In this document: positions 48,024-61,193 of the stretch, piece after piece
Numbering within the stretch: position 1 is the first letter of the stretch
Layout of the letters: each line of letters opens with the position of its first letter
NCBI RefSeq assembly: GCF_003172895.1
Contig: NZ_QGKL01000021.1
Location: 1 to 64,000, forward strand
DNA length: 64,000 bases
Direction of reading: 5' to 3'
DNA from: Leucothrix arctica
Lineage (GTDB): Bacteria; Pseudomonadota; Gammaproteobacteria; Thiotrichales; Thiotrichaceae
The notes under the pieces: model-generated
Told to the model about the DNA's origin: nothing
What the model saw: only the letters and a program-made list of their open reading frames with translations
Database searches by the model: none
Translations under genes and position numbers: made by a program

Positions 48024-48485
48024 ATGTCTTCCATATTCCAAGTATTAAAGCGCCAACAGACTGAAAAATCACTTGAAATATGGCGCTCAACACAACTTTC
48101 AAGGACACCTAATCAAGGCTGGGTTCGCACAATAAGAGAAGCACTGGGAATGACAGTGGACTCTTTAGCTGTGCGCCTTGGCATCACTCCTACTGGAGTC
48201 CGAAAGGTTGAGAACTCAGAAGCCGCCAACACCATAACTTTAAAATCTCTAATGAAAGCAGCTGAAGCGCTAGACTGTGAACTACGATACTCCTTAGTAC
48301 CAAAGTATTCATTAGAAGAAATGCGCGATAGGCAAGCCACAAGAAAAGCGAAAGAACAAATACAGTCAATTGGACACTCCATGAAACTGGAAGACCAAGA
48401 AGTCGATAGTGCATCACAAAAATTACTACTAGAAGAACTAAAGAAAAGCTTGCTTGAAGGTAACGGAAAGGAGCTTTGGAAATGA
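48024..48485 (+). CDS. Mobile mystery protein A (XRE-type HTH)
   Basis: A 153-residue protein of the TIGR02612 family. An XRE helix-turn-helix occupies about 35-90 (WVRTIREALGMTVDSLAVRLGITPTGVRKVE). The C-terminal part is helical and charged. AAAAGG lies upstream of the ATG. It overlaps the Fic gene by 4 bp (ATGA), as in other A/B pairs. It probably represses its own promoter through the palindrome at 47961 and may act as antitoxin-like partner of the Fic protein. Confidence 0.88.
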   Translation: MSSIFQVLKRQQTEKSLEIWRSTQLSRTPNQGWVRTIREALGMTVDSLAVRLGITPTGVRKVENSEAANTITLKSLMKAAEALDCELRYSLVPKYSLEEMRDRQATRKAKEQIQSIGHSMKLEDQEVDSASQKLLLEELKKSLLEGNGKELWK

Positions 48486-49066
48486 TATTTGAATACCCTG
48501 AAGGCTCTACACCACTCAACGCTGATGAGTCTGCTGGCTTAATTCCTCAACACATCACCATCCAGAGCGAGTTAAACACTTGGGAAGAAGCCAATATCAT
48601 TGAAGGTGAACGTTGGGCTTTGCGCCAAAAGAAAGCACAGCTATTAACTGAAGGCTTTGTTAGATCGCTTCATAAAAAGATGTTTGATCAAACGTGGGAA
48701 TGGGCAGGCACCTTTCGCTCAAGTAATAAAAATATCGGTGTTGAGTGGTCTCAAGTATCAATGCAGCTACGCAACCTACTAGACAACGCTCAATACCAAC
48801 TTGATAACGACGTTTACCCTGAACACGAATTAGCCGTTCGCCTTCATCACCAACTAGTCTTTATTCACCCTTTTCCAAACGGCAATGGAAGACGTGCCAG
48901 ATTACTTGCTGATTTATTATTGGTTAATCATGGAGAGCCAAGGTTAACTTGGGGAAGTCGCACAACTCTGACTGCATCTGGGGATGTACGGAAACAATAT
49001 ATTGAAGCTTTGCGTGCAGCTGATCGAGGTGATATTACGATGCTATTAGAGTTTTCATCAACTTAA
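48482..49066 (+). CDS. Mobile mystery protein B (Fic-domain protein)
   Basis: A 194-residue protein of the TIGR02613 family. The Fic active-site motif is intact: HPFPNGNGRRAR, with the catalytic His. Fic enzymes transfer AMP or another nucleotide moiety to a target hydroxyl. An ANIIEGE segment near residues 36-42 resembles the inhibitory (S/T)xxxE(G/N) helix, but Ala stands where Ser/Thr is expected. ATG 48482 has AAGGAG 8 nt upstream; a TTG at 48476 is also in frame. It is the toxin-like member of the pair. Confidence 0.9.
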   Translation: MIFEYPEGSTPLNADESAGLIPQHITIQSELNTWEEANIIEGERWALRQKKAQLLTEGFVRSLHKKMFDQTWEWAGTFRSSNKNIGVEWSQVSMQLRNLLDNAQYQLDNDVYPEHELAVRLHHQLVFIHPFPNGNGRRARLLADLLLVNHGEPRLTWGSRTTLTASGDVRKQYIEALRAADRGDITMLLEFSST

Positions 49067-51553: not shown

Positions 51554-52989
51554 CAGAGGTTTCCCTCATGTGCTAATTTCAAAGAGCCCGCGAAAGAGGC
51601 GGGTAGCGCGTTATTCAAGGTAAAACGACTGTTCTCTTCGATGATTTGCATTTTTGCTAGCCACTGCTCGAACTCTGGCGCAGGGCTAGACCCCAATGCA
51701 CGACGCAGATAAAGCGCATCGTGAAAGGAGGTGGTTTGGTAGTTGAGCATGATGTCGTCAGAGCCAGGAATGCCCATAATGAAAGTACAGCCAGCAACAC
51801 CTAACAAGGTCAGCAAGTTGTCCATATCATTTTGATCAGCCTCTGCGTGGTTGGTGTAGCAGATGTCACAGCCCATAGGCAGTCCGAGTAGCTTGCCGCA
51901 GAAGTGATCTTCGAGACCTGCACGGATAATTTCTTTACCGTCAAACAAGTATTCAGGGCCAATGAAACCAACCACGGTATTGACCAATAGCGGTGAAAAC
52001 TTCCGTGCGACAGCATAGGCTCTAACTTCGCAGGTTTGTTGGTCTAGTCCGTGGTGTGCATTGGCCGACAACGAGCTACCTTGGCCCGTTTCGAAATACA
52101 TGACGTTATCGCCAACCGTGCCACGCTCTAGCGATAGTGCTGCATCTTGTGCCTCTGCCAGTGTTGAGAGGTTGAAGCCAAAGCTACTATTAGTGGCTTC
52201 AGTACCGCCAATGGATTGGAAAACAAGGTCAACAGGTGCGCCTTGTTCGATCGCTTCTAAGGTGTTGGTGACGTGAGTGAGTACGCAAGATTGTGTTGGT
52301 ATCTCATACTCTTGAATGACTGAGTCCATCAGTTTCATTAGGTTTACTGCTTGCGCGACATTGTCAGTAGCGGGGTTGATACCAATGACCGCATCACCAC
52401 TGCCATAGAGCAAACCATCCAAAATACTAGCGGCAATGCCCGTGACATCATCCGTTGGGTGGTTAGGCTGCAAGCGCGTTGAGAGGTTACCGGGCAAGCC
52501 AAGCGTGTTACGAAATGCGGTGGTGATATGGCATTTTTGCGCGACCAAAATCAAATCCTGATTGCGCATGATTTTGCAGACTGCTGCCACCATTTCTGGA
52601 GTAATACCTGCTCGAATTGACGTTAAACTGTCAGACGTTGCCGCGTCACTGAGTAGCCAGTTACGGAAGTCACCAACTGTCAAATGGGAGATCGGTGAAA
52701 AGGCATCTAGATCGTGTTCGTCCATGATGAGGCGAGTCACCTCATCCTCCTCATAAGGTATTAGCGCTTCGCTTAGGAATGTTTTTAAAGGCACTTCTGC
52801 GAGCACCTGTTGCGCGACAGCGCGTTCCTCTGAAGACTCTGCGGCAACACCTGCAAGATAGTCACCAGAGCGAGCGGGTGTCGCCTTAGCCATTACATCA
52901 GCGAGATTGCTAAAGCTGTAGGTGCGCGTCCCGAGTACGTAGCGGTAACTCGAGCGTCCTGTGCTTGTTTGATGTAATGAATCTTGCAT
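51553..52989 (-). CDS. eutB: Ethanolamine ammonia-lyase large subunit
   Basis: A 478-residue EutB, near the usual length. Features: the TYSFSNLADVMAKATPARSGD start region, LGLPGNLSTRLQPNHPTDD, YGSGDAVIGINPATDN, TNSSFGFNLSTLAEAQDAAL and GFIGPEYLFDGKEI, all conserved in the TIM-barrel catalytic subunit. No microcompartment shell genes, EutA reactivase or aldehyde dehydrogenase lie in the window, so this is the short, nitrogen-acquisition type of eut locus. Confidence 0.95.
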   Translation of the reverse strand: MQDSLHQTSTGRSSYRYVLGTRTYSFSNLADVMAKATPARSGDYLAGVAAESSEERAVAQQVLAEVPLKTFLSEALIPYEEDEVTRLIMDEHDLDAFSPISHLTVGDFRNWLLSDAATSDSLTSIRAGITPEMVAAVCKIMRNQDLILVAQKCHITTAFRNTLGLPGNLSTRLQPNHPTDDVTGIAASILDGLLYGSGDAVIGINPATDNVAQAVNLMKLMDSVIQEYEIPTQSCVLTHVTNTLEAIEQGAPVDLVFQSIGGTEATNSSFGFNLSTLAEAQDAALSLERGTVGDNVMYFETGQGSSLSANAHHGLDQQTCEVRAYAVARKFSPLLVNTVVGFIGPEYLFDGKEIIRAGLEDHFCGKLLGLPMGCDICYTNHAEADQNDMDNLLTLLGVAGCTFIMGIPGSDDIMLNYQTTSFHDALYLRRALGSSPAPEFEQWLAKMQIIEENSRFTLNNALPASFAGSLKLAHEGNL

Positions 52990-53153
52990 AGTTTTCCTTA
53001 TATTCTGGAATGAATATTGCTTGTTAATAAAGTATCAAAGAGCCGTTTTCGGTGGTTATCGAAAATTGGCAAAACTGAATAGTGTAATAAATTCAGTTAT
53101 TTAGGTTATATATTGATGATTTTTTGTTAAATCTGATAATACTAGGCGCACAC

Positions 53154-54122
53154 ATGAAGCACCCCCATTTCACCCCCGATGCACCAATCAAGCGCAACTC
53201 AATGACCACGGCAACAGCCGATGATGCGAATGAACACGCCAGTAATTTGACCAATTGGGAGCAGTGTTACGACCAGATTAGCTCAGGCCAATTTCATGGC
53301 AGCATCACTGAGATAGCGTTTAATGGCTTGCAGGTATTTCATGAATTCACGAGTCATCAGCTACACCAAAACTGTAATGTTTGGCCAGATAGTATTTGGC
53401 TGGGTATCGCGGCAAATAAAGGCTCGGACAGTCGTATTAATGGTATTAGCTTAGGCGATAATGACTTGATGTGCCGTCCGGGTAATCGTGAATTTGAGCT
53501 AATTACACCGCAAAATCATGATATTTACGGGATAGTGGTGCGTAAGGAAGAGATGATGTGTAGCGCTGATAGTCAGGGTATGGATATAAATTGGAGTGAC
53601 TTTGCTACCTATGAGCGCTTGGCGATTCCAGAAAGCTTCATGGCGAATTTACGATTTCTACTTCATCGGTTGCTGCGTGAAACAACGGTATTACCCGGTG
53701 CAAAATTGCAGCAGGACATTATTACCATGGCTTTGCTAGAGATTTTGCAGAGTCAGCAACCTTGTGCAGAAACCGCGCAGAGTTATACGCGACGCAAGCA
53801 GGTGGTAGACAGAATCACTGATTATTTAGAGGCGAATAAAGATAGGCCGATTCAAATTACCGAACTGTGCAAAGCAGTGGGTGCGAGCCGTCGAACGTTG
53901 CAATATAGCTTTGAGTCTATTGTGGGGATTAGTCCGATACAGTACTTACGTGCGACCCGACTTAATGGGGCGCGACGTAGCTTGTTGGTTGCTCGTGCGG
54001 AGACAACTGTGGCGGATGTTGCGGCTGACTGGGGCTTTTTACACTTAAGCCAATTCACTAAAGATTATCGAGAGTTATTTGGTGAGCGGCCTTCTGAAAC
54101 GCGGGAGCGTTGGGCGGCGTAG
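53154..54122 (+). CDS. eutR: AraC-family regulator (EutR-like)
   Basis: About 322 residues from ATG 53154 (TAGGCG upstream). The C-terminal 105 residues are an AraC HTH pair (ITELCKAVGASRRTLQYSFESIVGISPIQYLRATRL and VADVAADWGFLHLSQFTKDYRELFGERPSETR). The N-terminal part is the effector domain seen in EutR. It is divergent from eutB across about 165 bp, so it is the likely activator of the eutBC-amt operon with ethanolamine and B12 as signals (family knowledge). Confidence 0.88.
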   Translation: MKHPHFTPDAPIKRNSMTTATADDANEHASNLTNWEQCYDQISSGQFHGSITEIAFNGLQVFHEFTSHQLHQNCNVWPDSIWLGIAANKGSDSRINGISLGDNDLMCRPGNREFELITPQNHDIYGIVVRKEEMMCSADSQGMDINWSDFATYERLAIPESFMANLRFLLHRLLRETTVLPGAKLQQDIITMALLEILQSQQPCAETAQSYTRRKQVVDRITDYLEANKDRPIQITELCKAVGASRRTLQYSFESIVGISPIQYLRATRLNGARRSLLVARAETTVADVAADWGFLHLSQFTKDYRELFGERPSETRERWAA

Positions 54123-54165
54123 TTTCTTAAAGTGGCGTTTTCTAAGTGATCACTACAAGCCACCT

Positions 54166-54183
54166 ATGTTTCCCATGAAACAT
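54166..54183. repeat. 18-bp near-parS dyad, copy 1
   Basis: ATGTTTCCCATGAAACAT, identical to the copy at 56104-56121. The inner 16 bases TGTTTCCCATGAAACA match the ParB site TGTTTCACGTGAAACA at 14 of 16 positions. Here the flanks extend the dyad by one pair (TATG...CATA). It lies between eutR and the Phd/UPF0175 gene. Confidence 0.7.
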
Positions 54184-54237
54184 ATTTCAGAGATTAAACT
54201 ACGGCTTTTCAGATAATCTATATCCGTTCGTCATCGG

Positions 54238-54564
54238 TTAACCCACCAATTCGTCGATAGCACTCAAGTCTTCTTCTAGGTCATAGTCTGCGATTGCAAC
54301 ACCTAGAAAGCCTAATAGCTTCATGGTCTCCCGCTGACTTTTTCCTAATGAACGACTGAGTTGACCTAAGCTAAGGTCACCGTTTTGGAAGCCTTTTACG
54401 GAGCACCAAGTCTTTAAACCTTGATCCATAACGCTGTCAGTGAAAGGTAGCGCTAACCCTACTGGCTGGCCGTGCTTAGTTATGAGTGCGTAGTCATTTT
54501 GCCTGAAAGTTTTAGAAAGCTTATCGGGATTGGTTTGGAGTTCTTTTATTTCTATGACTTGCAT
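54238..54564 (-). CDS. Phd-type antitoxin fused to UPF0175 domain
   Basis: A 108-residue protein. Residues 1-45 look like a Phd/YefM N-terminus (VIEIKELQTNPDKLSKTF, ALITKHGQPVGLALPF). Residues about 50-108 match UPF0175 (LSLGQLSRSLGKSQRETMKLLGFLGV, DYDLEEDLSAIDEL), a small HTH-like family. AAGGAG lies 8 nt before the ATG. No PIN, RelE or Doc toxin is adjacent; the divergent neighbour is a DUF3037 protein. It may be an orphan antitoxin or a regulator. Confidence 0.8.
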   Translation of the reverse strand: MQVIEIKELQTNPDKLSKTFRQNDYALITKHGQPVGLALPFTDSVMDQGLKTWCSVKGFQNGDLSLGQLSRSLGKSQRETMKLLGFLGVAIADYDLEEDLSAIDELVG

Positions 54565-54640
54565 TGGTTATACTCCTTTTAAGAGGTACAGCTATATCTT
54601 TGGTATGATCACAAAGGTAATATCTGGGAAGGGTTATAAA

Positions 54641-55450
54641 ATGAAATACGCCTGCAAATACAATATCATCCGCTTTCAGCCCTATGCTGAAACGCAAGAG
54701 TTCGCCAATATTGGTGTCGTACTCTTTGTGCCTAAAACTGGCAAATTCATTTTCAAATTACTGCCTCAAAATACTTACGGTAGAGTTACTAGCTTCTTTT
54801 CAAAGCTAGATAAAACAATCCTTCAAAATACCTTAAGCATCCTAAAGGATGAGCTTACACGCATACAAAAAATGGCTAACGACTATCATAACTTCGAACA
54901 AATTTATGATGAGTTGGTTAGATCAAGAGAAGGCGTTATTCAATACAGTGATCATTTTGCACGATTAGCTGAAGACCCTCAAAGCACGACTGATGCCCTA
55001 TTTGAACACTATGTTCATCATGCATTTACCAATGAAACTGGGCATGAAGAAAAAATGCGAGCGAGTATTACTCAGCTTTTGAGAACTCATAAATTAGTGG
55101 GCAGATATAAAAAGGCTTCTTTGGGCTCTGACTACTATGAAGTTAATTTGCCATTTGTTCACGATAATGGTGATAGGCCAGCTGTAATCAAACCTATTCA
55201 TTTTAAACATGCTGACTCAACAAAGCTGTTTGATCATGGCTTACAGTGGCTAACCAAAATGGACCAACTGTTTCGCATGAAGGTGACTACACCTGACAAC
55301 GTGCTATTTACTTTCCAAGCACCAGCTCATAAGAAAGGTAAGATTTACGACGCCTATGAGAAGGTTAGCGAGCAGATCAAAGAGTCTGGTATTACTATGC
55401 TAGATATTGAAGACAAAGCTAATATTGCTGAGTTCGCTCAACATCATTAA
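54641..55450 (+). CDS. DUF3037 domain-containing protein
   Basis: A 269-residue soluble protein. The start MKYACKYNIIRFQPYAETQEFANIGVVLF is the DUF3037 signature; AAGGG precedes ATG 54641, and a longer open frame from 54530 overlaps the divergent antitoxin gene and is rejected. Charged helices fill the middle and a basic region lies near 185-200. DUF3037 genes are often found beside HipA-like kinase genes, none of which is present here. Function unknown. Confidence 0.82.
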   Translation: MKYACKYNIIRFQPYAETQEFANIGVVLFVPKTGKFIFKLLPQNTYGRVTSFFSKLDKTILQNTLSILKDELTRIQKMANDYHNFEQIYDELVRSREGVIQYSDHFARLAEDPQSTTDALFEHYVHHAFTNETGHEEKMRASITQLLRTHKLVGRYKKASLGSDYYEVNLPFVHDNGDRPAVIKPIHFKHADSTKLFDHGLQWLTKMDQLFRMKVTTPDNVLFTFQAPAHKKGKIYDAYEKVSEQIKESGITMLDIEDKANIAEFAQHH

Positions 55451-55504
55451 AACAACTAGCTGTATCACTGACAGTTAGGAGTTTTGCTGAGTTATAGTCT
55501 AGCT

Positions 55505-56091
55505 ATGGATAAAAAACAATTGCCAGCTACGACGCTAACTACCAAGCAGTAGCAAAGCTACACCACTTACTGTCGCCTACTTGGTTGTATGAACTCATCA
55601 CCAAGCACTTCTCAAAAGGCAATGTGGTACTTGATGTCGGTTGTGGTACAGGCAGGGACTGCGATTGGCTATCTCTCAACGGCTATTTAACCACTGGTGT
55701 TGATGCATCGACTGGCATGCTTAACCTAGCCAAAGACAGCTACCCCAACATCAGCTTCATACAAGACTCACTACCCAAGTTAACCACTATAAAAACCGAG
55801 CAGTTCGCGAATGTGTTGTGTTCGGCTGTCATCATGCACTTGCCAGAAGATCAACTAGAAGAAACCGCTACTAACTTGCTTCGTGTTACCGAAATAGGTG
55901 GCTGCGTACTCATTACCTACCGTGGCTCGCCTTCTGACGATAATAGAGAGTCTGGAAAGCTGTATACGCCATTAGCACCCAACACACTCATTCAAACCTT
56001 TGAGCGCCTTGGTGCAACGCTTGTCAGTCATGCGCAAAACACCGAGGAAGAGCGCGGGCATGTTTGGAATAACTTGGTGTTTAGAAAGTAG
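55505..56091 (+). pseudogene. Class I SAM-dependent methyltransferase, frameshifted at its N-terminus
   Basis: The intact part (55585-56091, 168 residues from an internal ATG) has SAM motif I VVLDVGCGTGRDCDWL, acidic TGVDAS, and motif IV-like LCSAVIMHL. Upstream the same frame continues to 55522 with family-like SYDANYQAVAKLHHLL but has no start. An ATG at 55505 would supply one if the A6 run at 55511-55516 were A7, giving MDKKTIASYDAN. So either the gene has lost one A, or expression needs slippage, or the base is an error. Target unknown. Confidence 0.7.
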
Positions 56092-56103
56092 TGGTAACGC
56101 CTA

Positions 56104-56121
56104 ATGTTTCCCATGAAACAT
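56104..56121. repeat. 18-bp near-parS dyad, copy 2
   Basis: ATGTTTCCCATGAAACAT, identical and in the same orientation as 54166-54183, 13 bp after the methyltransferase stop. The two copies bound the antitoxin, DUF3037 and methyltransferase genes (about 1.94 kb). Confidence 0.7.
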
Positions 56122-56203
56122 GCGCACTTGCCATCTATCGCTTTGAGTATTAATCTGACATAACAGCTTGCTAGTTTTCTCTTCGGAAGTATCACTCCAC
56201 ATA

Positions 56204-57382
56204 ATGTCATCATACTCACCACAGCTTCCACAACACTCAAAACTAGACGTCGCAGCACTCTCGCGCTTATTTAAAAGTACCTCGACTTCCTACAAGTTTC
56301 TCTTCTTTTTAGCGATTTTAAACACACTTCAAAGCACACACAGAAAAGAAGGCGAACCTGTTCGCTTTGCTTTGGAAGATCTCGCGGTCGAAATGGCACT
56401 GCTTAGCTGGTATCCAATACAGTTTTATAAGCTCTCATTCGGTTGGCAAGATCAAGTCGCTAAGATCATTAGTCAATTGCAGTTTGACCCGTCGTTTAAA
56501 GCCATCACTAGTACAAGAGGGCAAACGCAGCTAAGAGCGGCAATCAAGGAACAAGCTAAAGACATTGGGCTTTACTCATTACTGAGATTTGTCCCGTACC
56601 GTCTGCTATCACCTTTTTATAGTGCTGAGTTAAGCGGTATTCCTGAGAAGAGAAAGAATGATGCGATTGCTGATCTAGCAAGCCAATACAACACTCAAAC
56701 TATTCCACTCTACAGTTTCGTTCAAGATCAAGACCAAGCCTGTATACAGATACACCCTGAGTGGGTTAACTACCTGCTACAAGCGGGGAACATCACCATA
56801 GTTAAAGACTGGACGCTGATGGGCTGGATTAGCTATCTACAAAAGCGTAACCCAAATACACCTGCCATTATCAACAAAGTATTGCCGCCGATTAAGCGCT
56901 CGTCGTTGAGTTCGCAAACCAGCTTCTGGAAGAAAATCATCGAGGCCGATGCTGGCCAAGACTTACGCTGTATATATTCGAATGAGCCGTTGCTCAATCA
57001 ATCATTCTCGCTAGATCACTTTCTGCCGTGGACTTTTATCTGTCACGACCAGATCTGGAACCTTTGTCCTGTGACTCCATCATCAAATTCGTCAAAAGGG
57101 AATAAGCTGCCTGCGGATGACTATGTTGAGAAGTTTATTCAGCAGCAGATTCAGGCGTTAGAGGTTAGCTCGAAAGTAATGTCAGCTAAGAGTTGGGATA
57201 AGATCACAGAGTCTTATGCGATGGATTTGCGCCTAGATCCTAAGTTGTTGCTGGACGAGAACGCAGTTCGGGATGCTTATACAGGTGTTTTAATGCCGAT
57301 GATGACACTGGCTAAGACGAGTGGGTTTGAGGCGAGTTGGCTTTATAAGAACGAACCTCACTCATCAGAAAATAACATTTAA
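56204..57382 (+). CDS. HNH endonuclease domain protein
   Basis: A 392-residue protein. The first ATG is 56204; a TTG at 56168 is in frame. Residues 1-240 are a helical N-terminal region of unknown fold. The HNH nuclease lies at about 265-315: RCIYSNEPL, SLDHFLPW (His of the first H), HDQIWNLCPV (N) and NSSKGNKLP. Such large HNH proteins occur in defence islands. The next gene, convergent with an end 15 bp away, is the Mrr/STAND protein. Nuclease activity is inferred from intact motif residues. Confidence 0.82.
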   Translation: MSSYSPQLPQHSKLDVAALSRLFKSTSTSYKFLFFLAILNTLQSTHRKEGEPVRFALEDLAVEMALLSWYPIQFYKLSFGWQDQVAKIISQLQFDPSFKAITSTRGQTQLRAAIKEQAKDIGLYSLLRFVPYRLLSPFYSAELSGIPEKRKNDAIADLASQYNTQTIPLYSFVQDQDQACIQIHPEWVNYLLQAGNITIVKDWTLMGWISYLQKRNPNTPAIINKVLPPIKRSSLSSQTSFWKKIIEADAGQDLRCIYSNEPLLNQSFSLDHFLPWTFICHDQIWNLCPVTPSSNSSKGNKLPADDYVEKFIQQQIQALEVSSKVMSAKSWDKITESYAMDLRLDPKLLLDENAVRDAYTGVLMPMMTLAKTSGFEASWLYKNEPHSSENNI

Positions 57383-57396
57383 AAAGACAGCTTATT

Positions 57397-59733
57397 TCAC
57401 ACTGGTACTATCAGGTTTGAAAATAAACTCTTTATTGAATCCTCATTAAATTCAATTTCAGATGATTTATAAGTTGGTACATTTTCAATAATTTCTTCAG
57501 CAACCTCTTCTTCTTCCAAATTATTAATTCGATCTTCAATTACTGTTTCAGCATCATCATATGAGTACTCCGAAACACTAGAAAGAGTTTTTAGTGACTC
57601 CAAATACTCTAATAATTCATCCTTTGTTTCATAGTTATCAATATGACTTTCAACTAATTCAAATTCTTGAGAAATTTGATTATCTATTTTATTGTAAACT
57701 ATACTCTTTATATCATCATACATATGATCATCTATATTACGTTTAAGCGCTATTTTTTCATCAACATCTCTCACCTCAGTAAGAGACAGTTCCAATCTTG
57801 ACTCTACTAATGCCAATAAGCTAAACATCACTGTTTTTACTTCCAACAGCTTTTTAAAGCGTTCCCCCTGAGTATCTTCCGATAACTCAAGCGATTCTGC
57901 TTCCTCAATTATATAATCAAGGCTAGATTTAACCATATAATAAATATACGGTAAATTATTTGCCTCCGAGCCCTCTAATAATATTGAATTATTTTTAAGA
58001 ATATCCGAAATCTTTTTAAGAAATAGCACTTCTTCTGAAGCGTACCACCAATTTAAAAGTAGCTCTAATCTTTTTATAAAACTTAAATTATCATAACTAT
58101 AAGTGTTTTTTCTAATTGAGGGAAGGTTAGAAAAAACTGTATCCAAATCATGAGAAAATTCTAAAAAATTTAACGCCAGTTCACCTCTCTTTTCATTACC
58201 ATAACCCATTACTTGATCTGTATATTTCCATAAATTATTAGCCCAACTCGGACACCATATATCTTTGGTAAGTATAGATAGTAGGTTTAGATCTCTTAAG
58301 TTTTCTTTCAGAAAATCTCTAATAGATGGATTTATAAAATCTATTTTTTTATTCTCAATTTTTATAAACCCAGACTCTAGAATCTGTATGGCCTCTTCAA
58401 AATCATTTAACCCCAAAGGCTGATTGTAATGGATACTAATTACTCTATGCACTTTATCATATGATTTTTTCAAACTATCAATTGAAGCTCCATATTGGTT
58501 ACTAAAATATAATGTTATCAATAAATCTTGAGACTTAGGGCTCAAACCTCTATACGGCTTTTTCCACACTACATCAGGTTTTTTTAATATATTATGTATA
58601 TGTTCTGGGTAGTCAACAGCTTCTATTTCTTCAGGCATATCACTTGAAACATAGGAAATAAGCCGAGGGTTATAGTTTGGATGGTCAATAATAGTTTTTA
58701 ACCAATCTCCTTCAAGCAGAGCCGCAAAGTGTTTCTGGCTTAAATTCGACACATTTAAATGCTGATAAAAAATTGATGCTTTAATACGCCTAGTATAAAT
58801 ACCAACATCTAAAATATACTTAGCAAGCTGAAAACGACTATGGTCAATATAATCCGAAACCAATCTCGCCTCCTCAAATATATGAGACCTCGTAGTGAGA
58901 ATAAACCTAGCATTCTTTGATTTTTTAATTCGATTTACAAAAGTAGCAAGCTCGGAGTCTTGTTCTGATAAAGATCTCTTACGTAACTCTATTCTCCCTA
59001 AAAAATCATCAAAGTAAAAGACTATAGGCTTATCTTTGCCTATTTTTGAAAATCCTTCTTCCAACGATCTGATCGCAAAAAAACTAAAATCGTTACCCAG
59101 GTATTTATATGAGACCATCTTTGCTAAGGTTGTTTTTCCTACTCCTGGTGGTCCCGAGATGATTAAGACTTTTTCACTTTCAAGCTTTGACAAAGCCTCA
59201 TCAAAGCTCTTGTTTGTAACATACATCTTAACCTGATCTAAAATTTCCTCTTTAGTAGCTTTAGTAAACTCCTCTAAACCCGAGTGTAGTACTTTTTCTA
59301 GTATCGCTGTCCCTGACAACCAGAGTTTAAAGTGTGACTTCAATATATCTGGGTGGGTTCTCAAAGCTCCTTCAATATCCTTTTGAGTCCAAAGGTCTTC
59401 GTCATACAGCAAATAAGGATCAAGAATTTTTTTCAGTTTATCCCATTGAGTCTTCGACAGAAGCTGGGATGTAAAAAACAAGTACCTCTTGGGTTTTAGT
59501 CTCTTTAAGTTTTTAACTTCTTTCTTAACAGCAGATACTAAAGAATCAAAACTTGAGCCAACATAATGCTTACATTGAATAACAGTTAAGTCATCCCCTT
59601 TCGAATGACGACCATCTTCACCACCATCCGCACCTGGCCCAAAAGCGGAAAACCTCATACCTGTTTCATATTTCGCAATATCTAAACAAAGGTCTTCGAA
59701 ATCTTCCCAAGAGAGGTTAGTTAAGTCGCTCAT
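57397..59733 (-). CDS. Mrr-like restriction nuclease fused to STAND NTPase (Avs-like)
   Basis: About 778 residues from ATG 59733 (AAGGA upstream). Residues 1-115 form an Mrr_cat nuclease: GPGADGGEDG (Asp36) and VIQCKHYVGS (Gln53/Lys55), a D...QxK form of the PD-(D/E)xK site. Residues about 175-420 are a STAND NTPase: Walker A SGPPGVGKTT (193-202), Walker B IVFYFDD (237-243), sensor ILTTRS. The 350-residue C-terminus is helical and lacks a known motif, in the place where sensor repeats sit in Avs-type defence proteins. It is clearly more AT-rich than nrdB next to it, a sign of transfer. Likely antiphage NTPase-nuclease. Confidence 0.85.
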   Translation of the reverse strand: MSDLTNLSWEDFEDLCLDIAKYETGMRFSAFGPGADGGEDGRHSKGDDLTVIQCKHYVGSSFDSLVSAVKKEVKNLKRLKPKRYLFFTSQLLSKTQWDKLKKILDPYLLYDEDLWTQKDIEGALRTHPDILKSHFKLWLSGTAILEKVLHSGLEEFTKATKEEILDQVKMYVTNKSFDEALSKLESEKVLIISGPPGVGKTTLAKMVSYKYLGNDFSFFAIRSLEEGFSKIGKDKPIVFYFDDFLGRIELRKRSLSEQDSELATFVNRIKKSKNARFILTTRSHIFEEARLVSDYIDHSRFQLAKYILDVGIYTRRIKASIFYQHLNVSNLSQKHFAALLEGDWLKTIIDHPNYNPRLISYVSSDMPEEIEAVDYPEHIHNILKKPDVVWKKPYRGLSPKSQDLLITLYFSNQYGASIDSLKKSYDKVHRVISIHYNQPLGLNDFEEAIQILESGFIKIENKKIDFINPSIRDFLKENLRDLNLLSILTKDIWCPSWANNLWKYTDQVMGYGNEKRGELALNFLEFSHDLDTVFSNLPSIRKNTYSYDNLSFIKRLELLLNWWYASEEVLFLKKISDILKNNSILLEGSEANNLPYIYYMVKSSLDYIIEEAESLELSEDTQGERFKKLLEVKTVMFSLLALVESRLELSLTEVRDVDEKIALKRNIDDHMYDDIKSIVYNKIDNQISQEFELVESHIDNYETKDELLEYLESLKTLSSVSEYSYDDAETVIEDRINNLEEEEVAEEIIENVPTYKSSEIEFNEDSIKSLFSNLIVPV

Positions 59734-59852
59734 AAAAATCCTTAAGTACAAAAAAAGTTAGTTCTTTTGATCGCAAGTTATTGATAAGCATATTAACAGA
59801 GGTTAACTAAGGAGTGTAAAAACTAACCTTAATCCAAACCTTAAACACAAAA

Positions 59853-59874
59853 AAGCCCGACAATCGCCGGGCTT
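59853..59874 (-). terminator. Intrinsic terminator of nrdAB
   Basis: On the minus strand AAGCCCG pairs with CGGGCTT (59853-59859 with 59868-59874), followed by a T run (complement of 59849-59854). It lies 33 bp after the nrdB stop. Confidence 0.85.
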
Positions 59875-59906
59875 AAAATGCACTTCTAGGGGTTCGGATT
59901 AACGAA

Positions 59907-61193
59907 TTAATCCCATTTCAGCGCGCCGCCCGTTTGGTATTCAGTAACACGCGTCTCAAAGAAGTTTTTCTCCTTCTTCATGTTCGCCTGCTCATCCAAC
60001 CAAGGACTGCGATTTTGTGCGCCTGGGAACGGCTCTTCAAGACCTAACTGACGCGCACGACGGTTAGCAATGAATCGGAACTGTTCAATATGGTCATCAG
60101 CGTTATAACCTAAGATAGGCTCGCGTAATATGTAACGTGCGTAGCTAATTTCAGCTGCTTCCGCTTCATCCCACATTTTACGAATCTCTTTAGGATCAAG
60201 CTTCACATCATTCTCAATCAAGATCTGCTTAACAACACGGATACCAAATGATGCGTGCATCACTTCATCACGCATGATGTATTGAAGCTGCTCAGACGTA
60301 CCCTTCATCAATCCACGACGCTGTAGCGAGAAGATTGGTGTAAAGCCGTTGTAGAACCAGCTGCCTTCAAAGATGCCTGAGAAGAACATGTATGACATAA
60401 CAAAGCTGCTTAGGTCATCTTGGTTAGTCAGATCCATGTCAGAGCGCATAACGTCATTCAAACGACGGTTAGCTAGCTGAATCTTCTGGTTGATCTCTGG
60501 CACAACACGGTAACGGTTATAAATCTCAGCCTGATCGATACCAAGGGTCTCGATGCAATGCTGGTATGTCCATGTGTGTAGCGCTTCTTCGTATACCTGA
60601 CGTGCCTGATAAATCTGTAGCTCAGGCGCTGTCATCTTCTCCATCACAGCTAGGCCGATGTTACGCATCGCCATGATGTCAGATGTTGTTAGGTAAGCCA
60701 GTACGTTTTCATAAACGTGTTTTTCAGCATCGGTCAGGGTGTGGTTGTAGTCATGTACATCCTGAGCCATGTTGATGTCTAGCGGTGTCCAATGGTTCTT
60801 GTTGGCGTTAAGGAAATAATCCCAAGCCCAAGGGTATTTGAACGGTGCTAGCTGGTTTATGTCACCTTGACCATTGATTACACGTTTGTCTTCTGAACTC
60901 ACGGCAGTCATGATCTTGCCTGTAACACCAAGCTGCTCTGCTTCCTGTTCCATGCCTAGTACGGCACTTTCAGTCACAGGCTCACTAGCAGGCGTTACCG
61001 CCGGCTTTGGTGCTTCAGGAGCAGCAGCGGCTTTCGCCGCTACTGGTGTAGACGTTACGCTAGACTCCTCGGACAGCACGGAGCTGCTCGAGTAGTTACC
61101 AAATGCTGTCGCAAGCTTTTCGGCAGGAGTCGCGCTAGCGCCTGTATTATTCGCCGGTTTTTTTGGCGCTATCGGATTGTCCCAATTTAGCAT
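59907..61193 (-). CDS. nrdB: Class Ia ribonucleotide reductase beta subunit
   Basis: About 428 residues from ATG 61193 (AAGGAG upstream; the longer frame from 61226 adds 11 residues over the Shine-Dalgarno). It makes the tyrosyl radical for NrdA. EEALHTWTYQHCIE holds a diiron Glu and His and the likely radical Tyr, aligned with E. coli Tyr122. Further metal ligands are in RDEVMHASFGIRV. The C-terminal tail ends TGGALKWD. Between MLNWDNP and the core at about residue 105 lies an 80-90-residue Ala/Pro/Ser-rich segment not in E. coli NrdB, probably disordered. Confidence 0.95.
   Translation of the reverse strand: MLNWDNPIAPKKPANNTGASATPAEKLATAFGNYSSSSVLSEESSVTSTPVAAKAAAAPEAPKPAVTPASEPVTESAVLGMEQEAEQLGVTGKIMTAVSSEDKRVINGQGDINQLAPFKYPWAWDYFLNANKNHWTPLDINMAQDVHDYNHTLTDAEKHVYENVLAYLTTSDIMAMRNIGLAVMEKMTAPELQIYQARQVYEEALHTWTYQHCIETLGIDQAEIYNRYRVVPEINQKIQLANRRLNDVMRSDMDLTNQDDLSSFVMSYMFFSGIFEGSWFYNGFTPIFSLQRRGLMKGTSEQLQYIMRDEVMHASFGIRVVKQILIENDVKLDPKEIRKMWDEAEAAEISYARYILREPILGYNADDHIEQFRFIANRRARQLGLEEPFPGAQNRSPWLDEQANMKKEKNFFETRVTEYQTGGALKWD

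Follow-up and report, generated by a model that had tools for sequence, protein, structure and literature searches.

The window analysed here, a stretch of 64,000 nucleotides from Leucothrix arctica (contig NZ_QGKL01000021.1, positions 1 to 64,000), contains on its reverse strand a gene for a 778-residue STAND protein, in the following simply STAND, which on the basis of its sequence is a new member of the already catalogued defence-candidate family PDC-S73. We consider it probable that STAND acts on its own as an inducible effector against phages (or plasmids), in the manner of an Avs or NLR protein. An initial annotation of the same DNA had presented STAND together with a convergent HNH nuclease gene as a likely acquired antiphage island, but the two genes appear to be neighbours that do not form one system. 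The parts of STAND are as follows.

57397-59733, minus strand: STAND gene, 778 residues; Mrr nuclease, nSTAND3 nucleoside triphosphatase (NTPase), helical C-terminal domain; PDC-S73 family
59314-59733, minus strand: N-terminal Mrr-type nuclease region, residues 1-140
58753-59223, minus strand: nSTAND3 NTPase, residues 171-327
58309-58752, minus strand: region following the NTPase, helical and winged-helix-like, residues 328-475, from predicted secondary structure; partly aligned with the plant NLR core
57505-58308, minus strand: helical C-terminal domain, residues 476-743, presumed sensor
57418-57444, minus strand: C-terminal tail helix, residues 764-772, with the invariant F771, from the alignment and predicted secondary structure

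The PADLOC model of PDC-S73 matches residues 3-772 of STAND with its positions 5-750 of 752 (E 2.1e-125, 418 bits), so that the type of search that the initial annotation had proposed identifies a full-length member, and nothing was found that separates STAND from this family. PDC is short for 'phage defence candidate' (PMC11514479). In the open-licence literature searched, neither the name PDC-S73 nor a tested Mrr-nSTAND3 protein nor a report on the trigger of the Mrr-nSTAND3 branch was found. In Pfam the N-terminus matches Mrr_cat at residues 5-94 (E 4.6e-7, 30.4 bits versus a gathering score of 21), and residues 171-327 match nSTAND3 (PF20720; E 5.6e-47, 159.7 bits versus a gathering score of 27.2); these matches, like that of the HNH protein to HNH_4, lie well beyond chance. 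An alignment was made of the window protein and its counterparts from 72 of 89 loci, the remaining 17 being near-identical, truncated, frameshifted or of doubtful start, and in all 73 sequences the nuclease residues E13, D36, D40, Q53 and K55 are identical, as are the Walker A residue K200, the Walker B residues D242 and D243, and R282. Since these residues are invariant, both the nuclease and the NTPase site are kept, and the D...QxK nuclease site read from the sequence earlier is borne out by D36, Q53 and K55. H351, P356, R357, P386, W390, P469 and F771 are likewise found in 73/73 sequences, and further invariant positions exist. The layout of nuclease, NTPase and sensor that had been likened to Avs-type defence is also recovered, in that an N-terminal effector, a central STAND NTPase and a C-terminal helical part are all present. 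Among the 11 PADLOC families matched at an E value of at most 1, a list from which the HMMER filters drop weak matches, none is named Avs, and the library is one that we take to include Avs models. The observations support an Avs-like nuclease-NTPase-helical protein, from which membership of Avs does not follow.

A whole-protein AlphaFold model of STAND (mean predicted local distance difference test score, pLDDT, 86.8; predicted template modelling score, pTM, 0.74) gave 13 Foldseek matches in the PDB at an E value of 1e-3, headed by Avs4 with a phage portal (8dgf, E 1.2e-7), a STAND-TPR protein (6mfv, E 1.6e-6), human SAMD9 (9zjs, E 1.8e-6), Avs3 with terminase (8dgc, E 1.0e-5) and the Avs5 filament (9nc9, E 1.3e-5). 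VIA-align superposes STAND on the plant NLRs WRR4A (Z 12.8, 276 residues, root-mean-square deviation 4.2) and RPP1 (Z 12.6, 276 residues, root-mean-square deviation 4.1), the latter covering residues 166-522, and many proteasome ATPases tie with these NLRs in Z score. A viral fold library returned 5 matches at an E value of 1e-3, the first of which comes from a phage contig and bears an NLR-type name (E 2.1e-7). A sequence search of the PDB with the single protein gave 105 matches, the best 60 of which are confined to the P-loop region, and a profile of 73 sequences gave 36, over the P-loop or short NTPase stretches, apart from four designed or repeat proteins that align with the C-terminal part; the absence of a family from these sequence and fold lists does not exclude that family. 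The structure prediction that had been suggested for the C-terminal half was in part rewarding, since residues 476-778 modelled alone form a well-folded and entirely helical domain (pLDDT 89.5, pTM 0.82), but neither Foldseek nor VIA identified a relative of it. The best VIA match is a designed helical protein (Z 9.8), the size being typical of helical bundles, and the scores of the cohesin STAG, TPR and 14-3-3 matches are likewise those that helical bundles generally give.

Of the solved Avs proteins, Avs4 and Avs3 are the first and fourth Foldseek matches and presumably also carry a nuclease effector on a STAND core, but their solved chains measure 1541 and 2028 residues, whereas STAND has 778 with a presumed sensor of about 270. 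The PADLOC models Aga_TIR-PNTD1-PNTD2 (residues 3-168, E 6.2e-40) and Aga_REase-TIR-PNTD1-PNTD2 (residues 3-149, E 1.6e-26), which we take to describe short-Argonaute partners, share the N-terminus alone with STAND, and STAND is flanked by HNH and nrdB instead of by an Argonaute gene. Avs5 is described as an nSTAND3 protein whose effector lies at the N-terminus and whose helical sensor lies at the C-terminus; on sensing an early jumbo-phage protein it activates its Sir2 effector (PMC12931631). STAND shares the nSTAND3 domain, the N-terminal effector and the C-terminal helical part, and the solved Avs5 chains of 767-768 residues are similar to it in length. Avs5, however, combines Sir2 with TPR/Sel1/PPR repeats, whereas STAND combines an Mrr nuclease with an unmatched helical domain, and among the 25 of 30 Pfam families listed there is no Sir2 family at STAND, the N-terminus matching Mrr_cat. 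For the mechanism proposed for STAND, Avs5 is the closest worked example.

The distribution of the family is patchy. The genome loci considered are the best 80 of at least 176 confirmed relatives, to which 9 viral loci, on 9 viral contigs, are added; by tblastn, relatives occur in 54 plasmid records, in 1 of which at least 80% of the query is covered, and in 2 phage records. STAND and HNH were not found in any of the six other congeners searched, three of which are less than 70% complete. The gene taken to be nrdB is present in three of these congeners with different adjoining genes in each, and eutR was not found in any of the six; both names are those of the initial annotation, presumed here from gene content and not from a family search. 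The absence of STAND from the congeners and the difference of the stretch among the three with nrdB uphold the view that the locus is acquired. A congener carries in its nrdB flank (L020:5492-6538) a gene that we take to be DUF1016-type-nuclease-like, with helix-turn-helix genes presumably nearby, and acquired genes may therefore land in the nrdB flank repeatedly. The strong AT bias that had been noted holds for STAND, whose GC content of 0.329 is matched in 2 of the 617 equally long stretches obtained by sliding along the window, but not for HNH, which at 0.441 is close to the window mean of 0.438. A second, intact copy of STAND lies on another contig (C4) of the same genome (L013:10681-12975, minus strand), 53% identical over residues 1-606 and 48% overall; its neighbours are presumably rnr- and rlmB-like genes and, on the other side, a short diaminopimelate-decarboxylase-like fragment and a KptA-like gene.

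Across 94 STAND loci, some of which are near-duplicates (L010/L032, L028/L029, L011/L039), neighbouring genes were clustered and each cluster identified from one representative. An OLD/AriA-like AAA-TOPRIM gene lies near STAND in 12 loci, genes of PDC-S06 and PDC-S46 do so in 7 and 6, respectively, and the mobility genes include resolvase (6 loci), IS66 transposase (4) and conjugation-coupling genes (4). This recurrence of defence and mobility neighbours fits mobile defence islands. PADLOC families matched at an E value of 1e-20 number 65 beside STAND versus 25 at 6-10 kb, counts that do not refer to distinct proteins, and the scan covered 107 of 149 immediate and 107 of 122 distant neighbours, with proteins of up to 700 residues and, in the near set, the loci up to L092. 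The contrast lends weak support to the proposed role of STAND.

What is observed comprises the domain content, the invariance of catalytic and NTPase residues, a fold resembling those of Avs proteins and NLRs, a patchy occurrence and neighbouring defence genes; together these observations suggest the following mechanism. The C-terminal helical domain would hold STAND inactive until it makes contact with an invader-associated molecule, whereupon the nSTAND3 NTPase would shift its nucleotide state and several copies of STAND would assemble. Assembly would gather the N-terminal Mrr-type nuclease domains, which would then cut DNA, and the infected cell would thereby be halted or the invading DNA destroyed. 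Sensing of a ligand, oligomerisation, DNA as the substrate and protection of the cell are what we infer. Several points weigh against this reading. Whole-chain comparison with the Avs proteins gives low TM-scores (0.26-0.33 by query length), and the likeness therefore lies in the order of the domains and not in chains that can be superposed. The C-terminal domain, in which the initial annotation had recognised no motif, has no significant fold match for residues 476-778 either, its best Foldseek match in the PDB having an E value of 0.2 against a threshold of 1e-3. PDC-S73 is itself only a candidate family, and the recurrent neighbours likewise show that no partner gene is constant across the STAND loci. 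Finally, since defence families are also present 6-10 kb away, the comparison of neighbours is not a clean control.

Other explanations must be considered alongside these points. STAND could be a modification-dependent (Type IV, Mrr-like) restriction enzyme that, instead of responding to a protein of the invader, reads modified or foreign DNA directly and uses its NTPase to move or clamp DNA, a notion that the Mrr_cat domain and the presence of family members on plasmids and in phage-related contigs would suit. We find it rather unlikely, however, for the NTPase is an nSTAND3 domain of the STAND switch type, the top solved matches of the STAND model are Avs, STAND-TPR, SAMD9 and NLR proteins, and among the listed Pfam families there is no known modified-base reader domain. 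The plasmid-borne relatives, the resolvase, IS66 and conjugation genes nearby, and the toxin-antitoxin genes in L010, in L012 and beside DUF3037 in the window would furthermore agree with a self- or stress-sensing toxin, or a factor for plasmid or island maintenance, that is not antiphage. Such a role is in poorer agreement with the recurrence of defence-type genes near STAND, and an antitoxin-like partner occurring in at least 4 of the 94 loci was not found, although the clusters comprise proteins of at least 100 residues and thus miss short antitoxins; we regard it as unlikely. That the gene is merely a decaying acquired remnant without function would explain its low GC content and its absence from congeners, but seems highly improbable given an intact frame of 778 codons with every invariant residue and a second intact copy in the same genome.

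A two-gene system in which HNH and STAND would supply two nucleases and one sensor is suggested by the arrangement itself, as the open reading frames are indeed tail to tail with 14 bp between their stop codons, and by one locus (L081) with an HNH relative about 7 kb from STAND. In the flanks examined, up to 10 kb for genome loci and 8 kb for viral loci and often shorter, this is however the only case among 80 genome loci, and the 9 viral loci have none. Among the 369 class genomes covered by both searches, STAND occurs in 6 and HNH in 6, both being present only in the genome of the window, and no HNH gene was found in 19.9 kb around the second STAND copy. The pairing implied earlier does not survive these counts: because the genes are so seldom near each other or in one genome, HNH and STAND are not a unit, a single system being rejected on these grounds, and their GC contents differ as well; we give the two-gene system next to no credence. 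The HNH gene and the other genes on its upstream side are these.

56204-57382, plus strand: HNH nuclease gene, 392 residues; HNH_4; judged a separate module on the co-occurrence tests
56969-57112, plus strand: HNH motif region, residues 256-303; H272, N286 and N295 kept in 16/16 aligned sequences
55585-56091, plus strand: small class I S-adenosylmethionine (SAM) methyltransferase gene, upstream of HNH; Methyltransf_25, E 5.4e-16
54530-55450, plus strand: DUF3037 gene (Pfam)
54238-54564, minus strand: antitoxin-like gene; UPF0175, weak Phd/YefM

HNH is judged a module of its own and is probably linked with the upstream methyltransferase gene. In Pfam the protein shows HNH_4 only (E 9.8e-9), with no SRA or ParB-like part, and it has weak Cas9-HNH matches. 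Relatives occur in 18 plasmid records and in 6 of the 369 class genomes, including that of the window; viral contigs gave 123 HNH pattern matches, none of which is a relative. Of the plasmid loci, 11 of 18 were viewed, one of them unannotated, and 5 of the remaining 10 have phosphorothioation-type genes (L005, L008, L121, L122 and L007, the last solely through a cysteine desulfurase), while a further relative (L125) is accompanied by DndC and a DndD/PbeC-type gene. The HNH relatives thus occur in neighbourhoods like those of Dnd, Ssp and Type-4 BREX HNH nucleases, the difference being that the window protein lacks the SRA or ParB-like part. For Dnd and BREX neighbourhoods, several HNH types are reported (PMC10853773, PMC12839542). 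DUF4007 and DndC, searched as modification genes, gave no match in the genome of the window, neither positive control giving a signal. Relatives of the SAM methyltransferase adjoin HNH in L125 and L126. None was seen next to the remaining three HNH relatives from class genomes, two of these three lying on sequence that is short or interrupted. This methyltransferase is the likelier partner of HNH. Its frame in the window has a TTG start only and is without the N-terminal stretch of the L125 and L126 relatives; judging from the sequence, a frame disruption or an unusual start near its beginning is possible. In one class genome (L127:9280-11902) a transposase gene, presumably IS30-like, sits immediately upstream of HNH, whose extended frame it overlaps.

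The placement between eutR and nrdB holds for the stretch as a whole, bounded by the end of eutR at 54122 and the start of nrdB at 59907, but eutR and HNH are not adjacent, the antitoxin-like, DUF3037 and methyltransferase genes intervening. A repeat scan of 52900-60000 revealed no repeat pair resembling an insertion scar around STAND and HNH, promoter-like sites are about as frequent as expected by chance (11 versus a mean of 12.0 in shuffles), and a similarity search of plasmids with 54100-59900 gave zero matches. The DUF3037 gene is divergent from the antitoxin-like gene, and its protein matches PADLOC PDC-M66B (E 9.6e-19) and phrog_5137 (E 1.4e-53). Identical parS-like 16-mers are found at 54167-54182 and 56105-56120 (plus strand), and the 18-bp repeat at 54166 and 56104 is parS-like. 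With at most 1 mismatch the motif occurs 3 times genome-wide, always on the contig of the window, and further parS-like coordinates on G000:C14 are 95822 and 103811. The site at C14:103811, about 40 kb past the window, is a perfect match to the parS consensus, near genes that appear dnaA-dnaN-recF-like. At 48024-49066 (plus strand) a helix-turn-helix gene is followed by a Fic-like gene, which we take to resemble a 'mobile mystery' pair.

A feature of the whole family is its C-terminal tail, which in the STAND model consists of a low-confidence linker (residues 745-758) and a helix (764-772). F771, near the extreme C-terminus in this short helical motif, is preceded directly by L, M or I in all 73 aligned sequences and at a distance of four positions by I, L or V in 70, and the third residue after it is L in 59. 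The pattern [ILV]xx[LMI]FxxL lies no more than 10 residues from the C-terminus in 62 of the 87 family members versus 3 of 1272 others, the latter being non-family proteins of at least 150 residues from the fetched sequences. The sliding-clamp-binding consensus is QxxLF, and such a motif was rejected for the tail because Q is never found four positions before F771, where I, L, V, M, A or N accounts for 73/73. Seven of the 87 family members end in PF (L035, L046, L048, L054, L068, L087, L088) versus 6 of the 1272 others (Fisher 4e-6), and 5 versus 1 end in [DE][ILVM]PF (Fisher 5e-6), kinship being ignored; since the 87 proteins still include close relatives, both values overstate independence. 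The ends read LDDIPF in L048, LDDLPF in L054, EDIPF in L046 and NDLPF in L088, and six of the seven PF ends fall in about three places of the tree, L035 not being on it. Other defence systems are known in which SSB serves as trigger or partner, and a study joining the SSB C-terminus and phage defence reportedly concerns DinG-like proteins. The C-terminal peptide of SSB is DDDIPF (PMC11981726). STAND of the window has the tail helix and ends in LIVPV, without an SSB-tip-like end, the SSB-copying end being confined to some lineages. We read the tail as a putative docking or latch element. It is a distinctly unlikely idea that PDC-S73 proteins join the protein network of the replication fork via their extreme C-terminus, where an amphipathic motif, [ILV]xx[LMI]F and usually then xxL, closes almost all members seen; by docking on the usual SSB-binding proteins or competing with phage SSB, they would sense phage replication.

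As far as its sequence goes, STAND makes a sound if unremarkable candidate for defence, with a tail feature shared across its family. Treating HNH as separate prevents a spurious two-gene system from being catalogued. Proteins of the effector-STAND-sensor type correspond in bacteria to the NLR immune receptors; for the Mrr-nSTAND3 branch, the tail residue that never varies and the ends resembling the SSB tip may offer a cheap mutational handle on sensing or on the inactive state.

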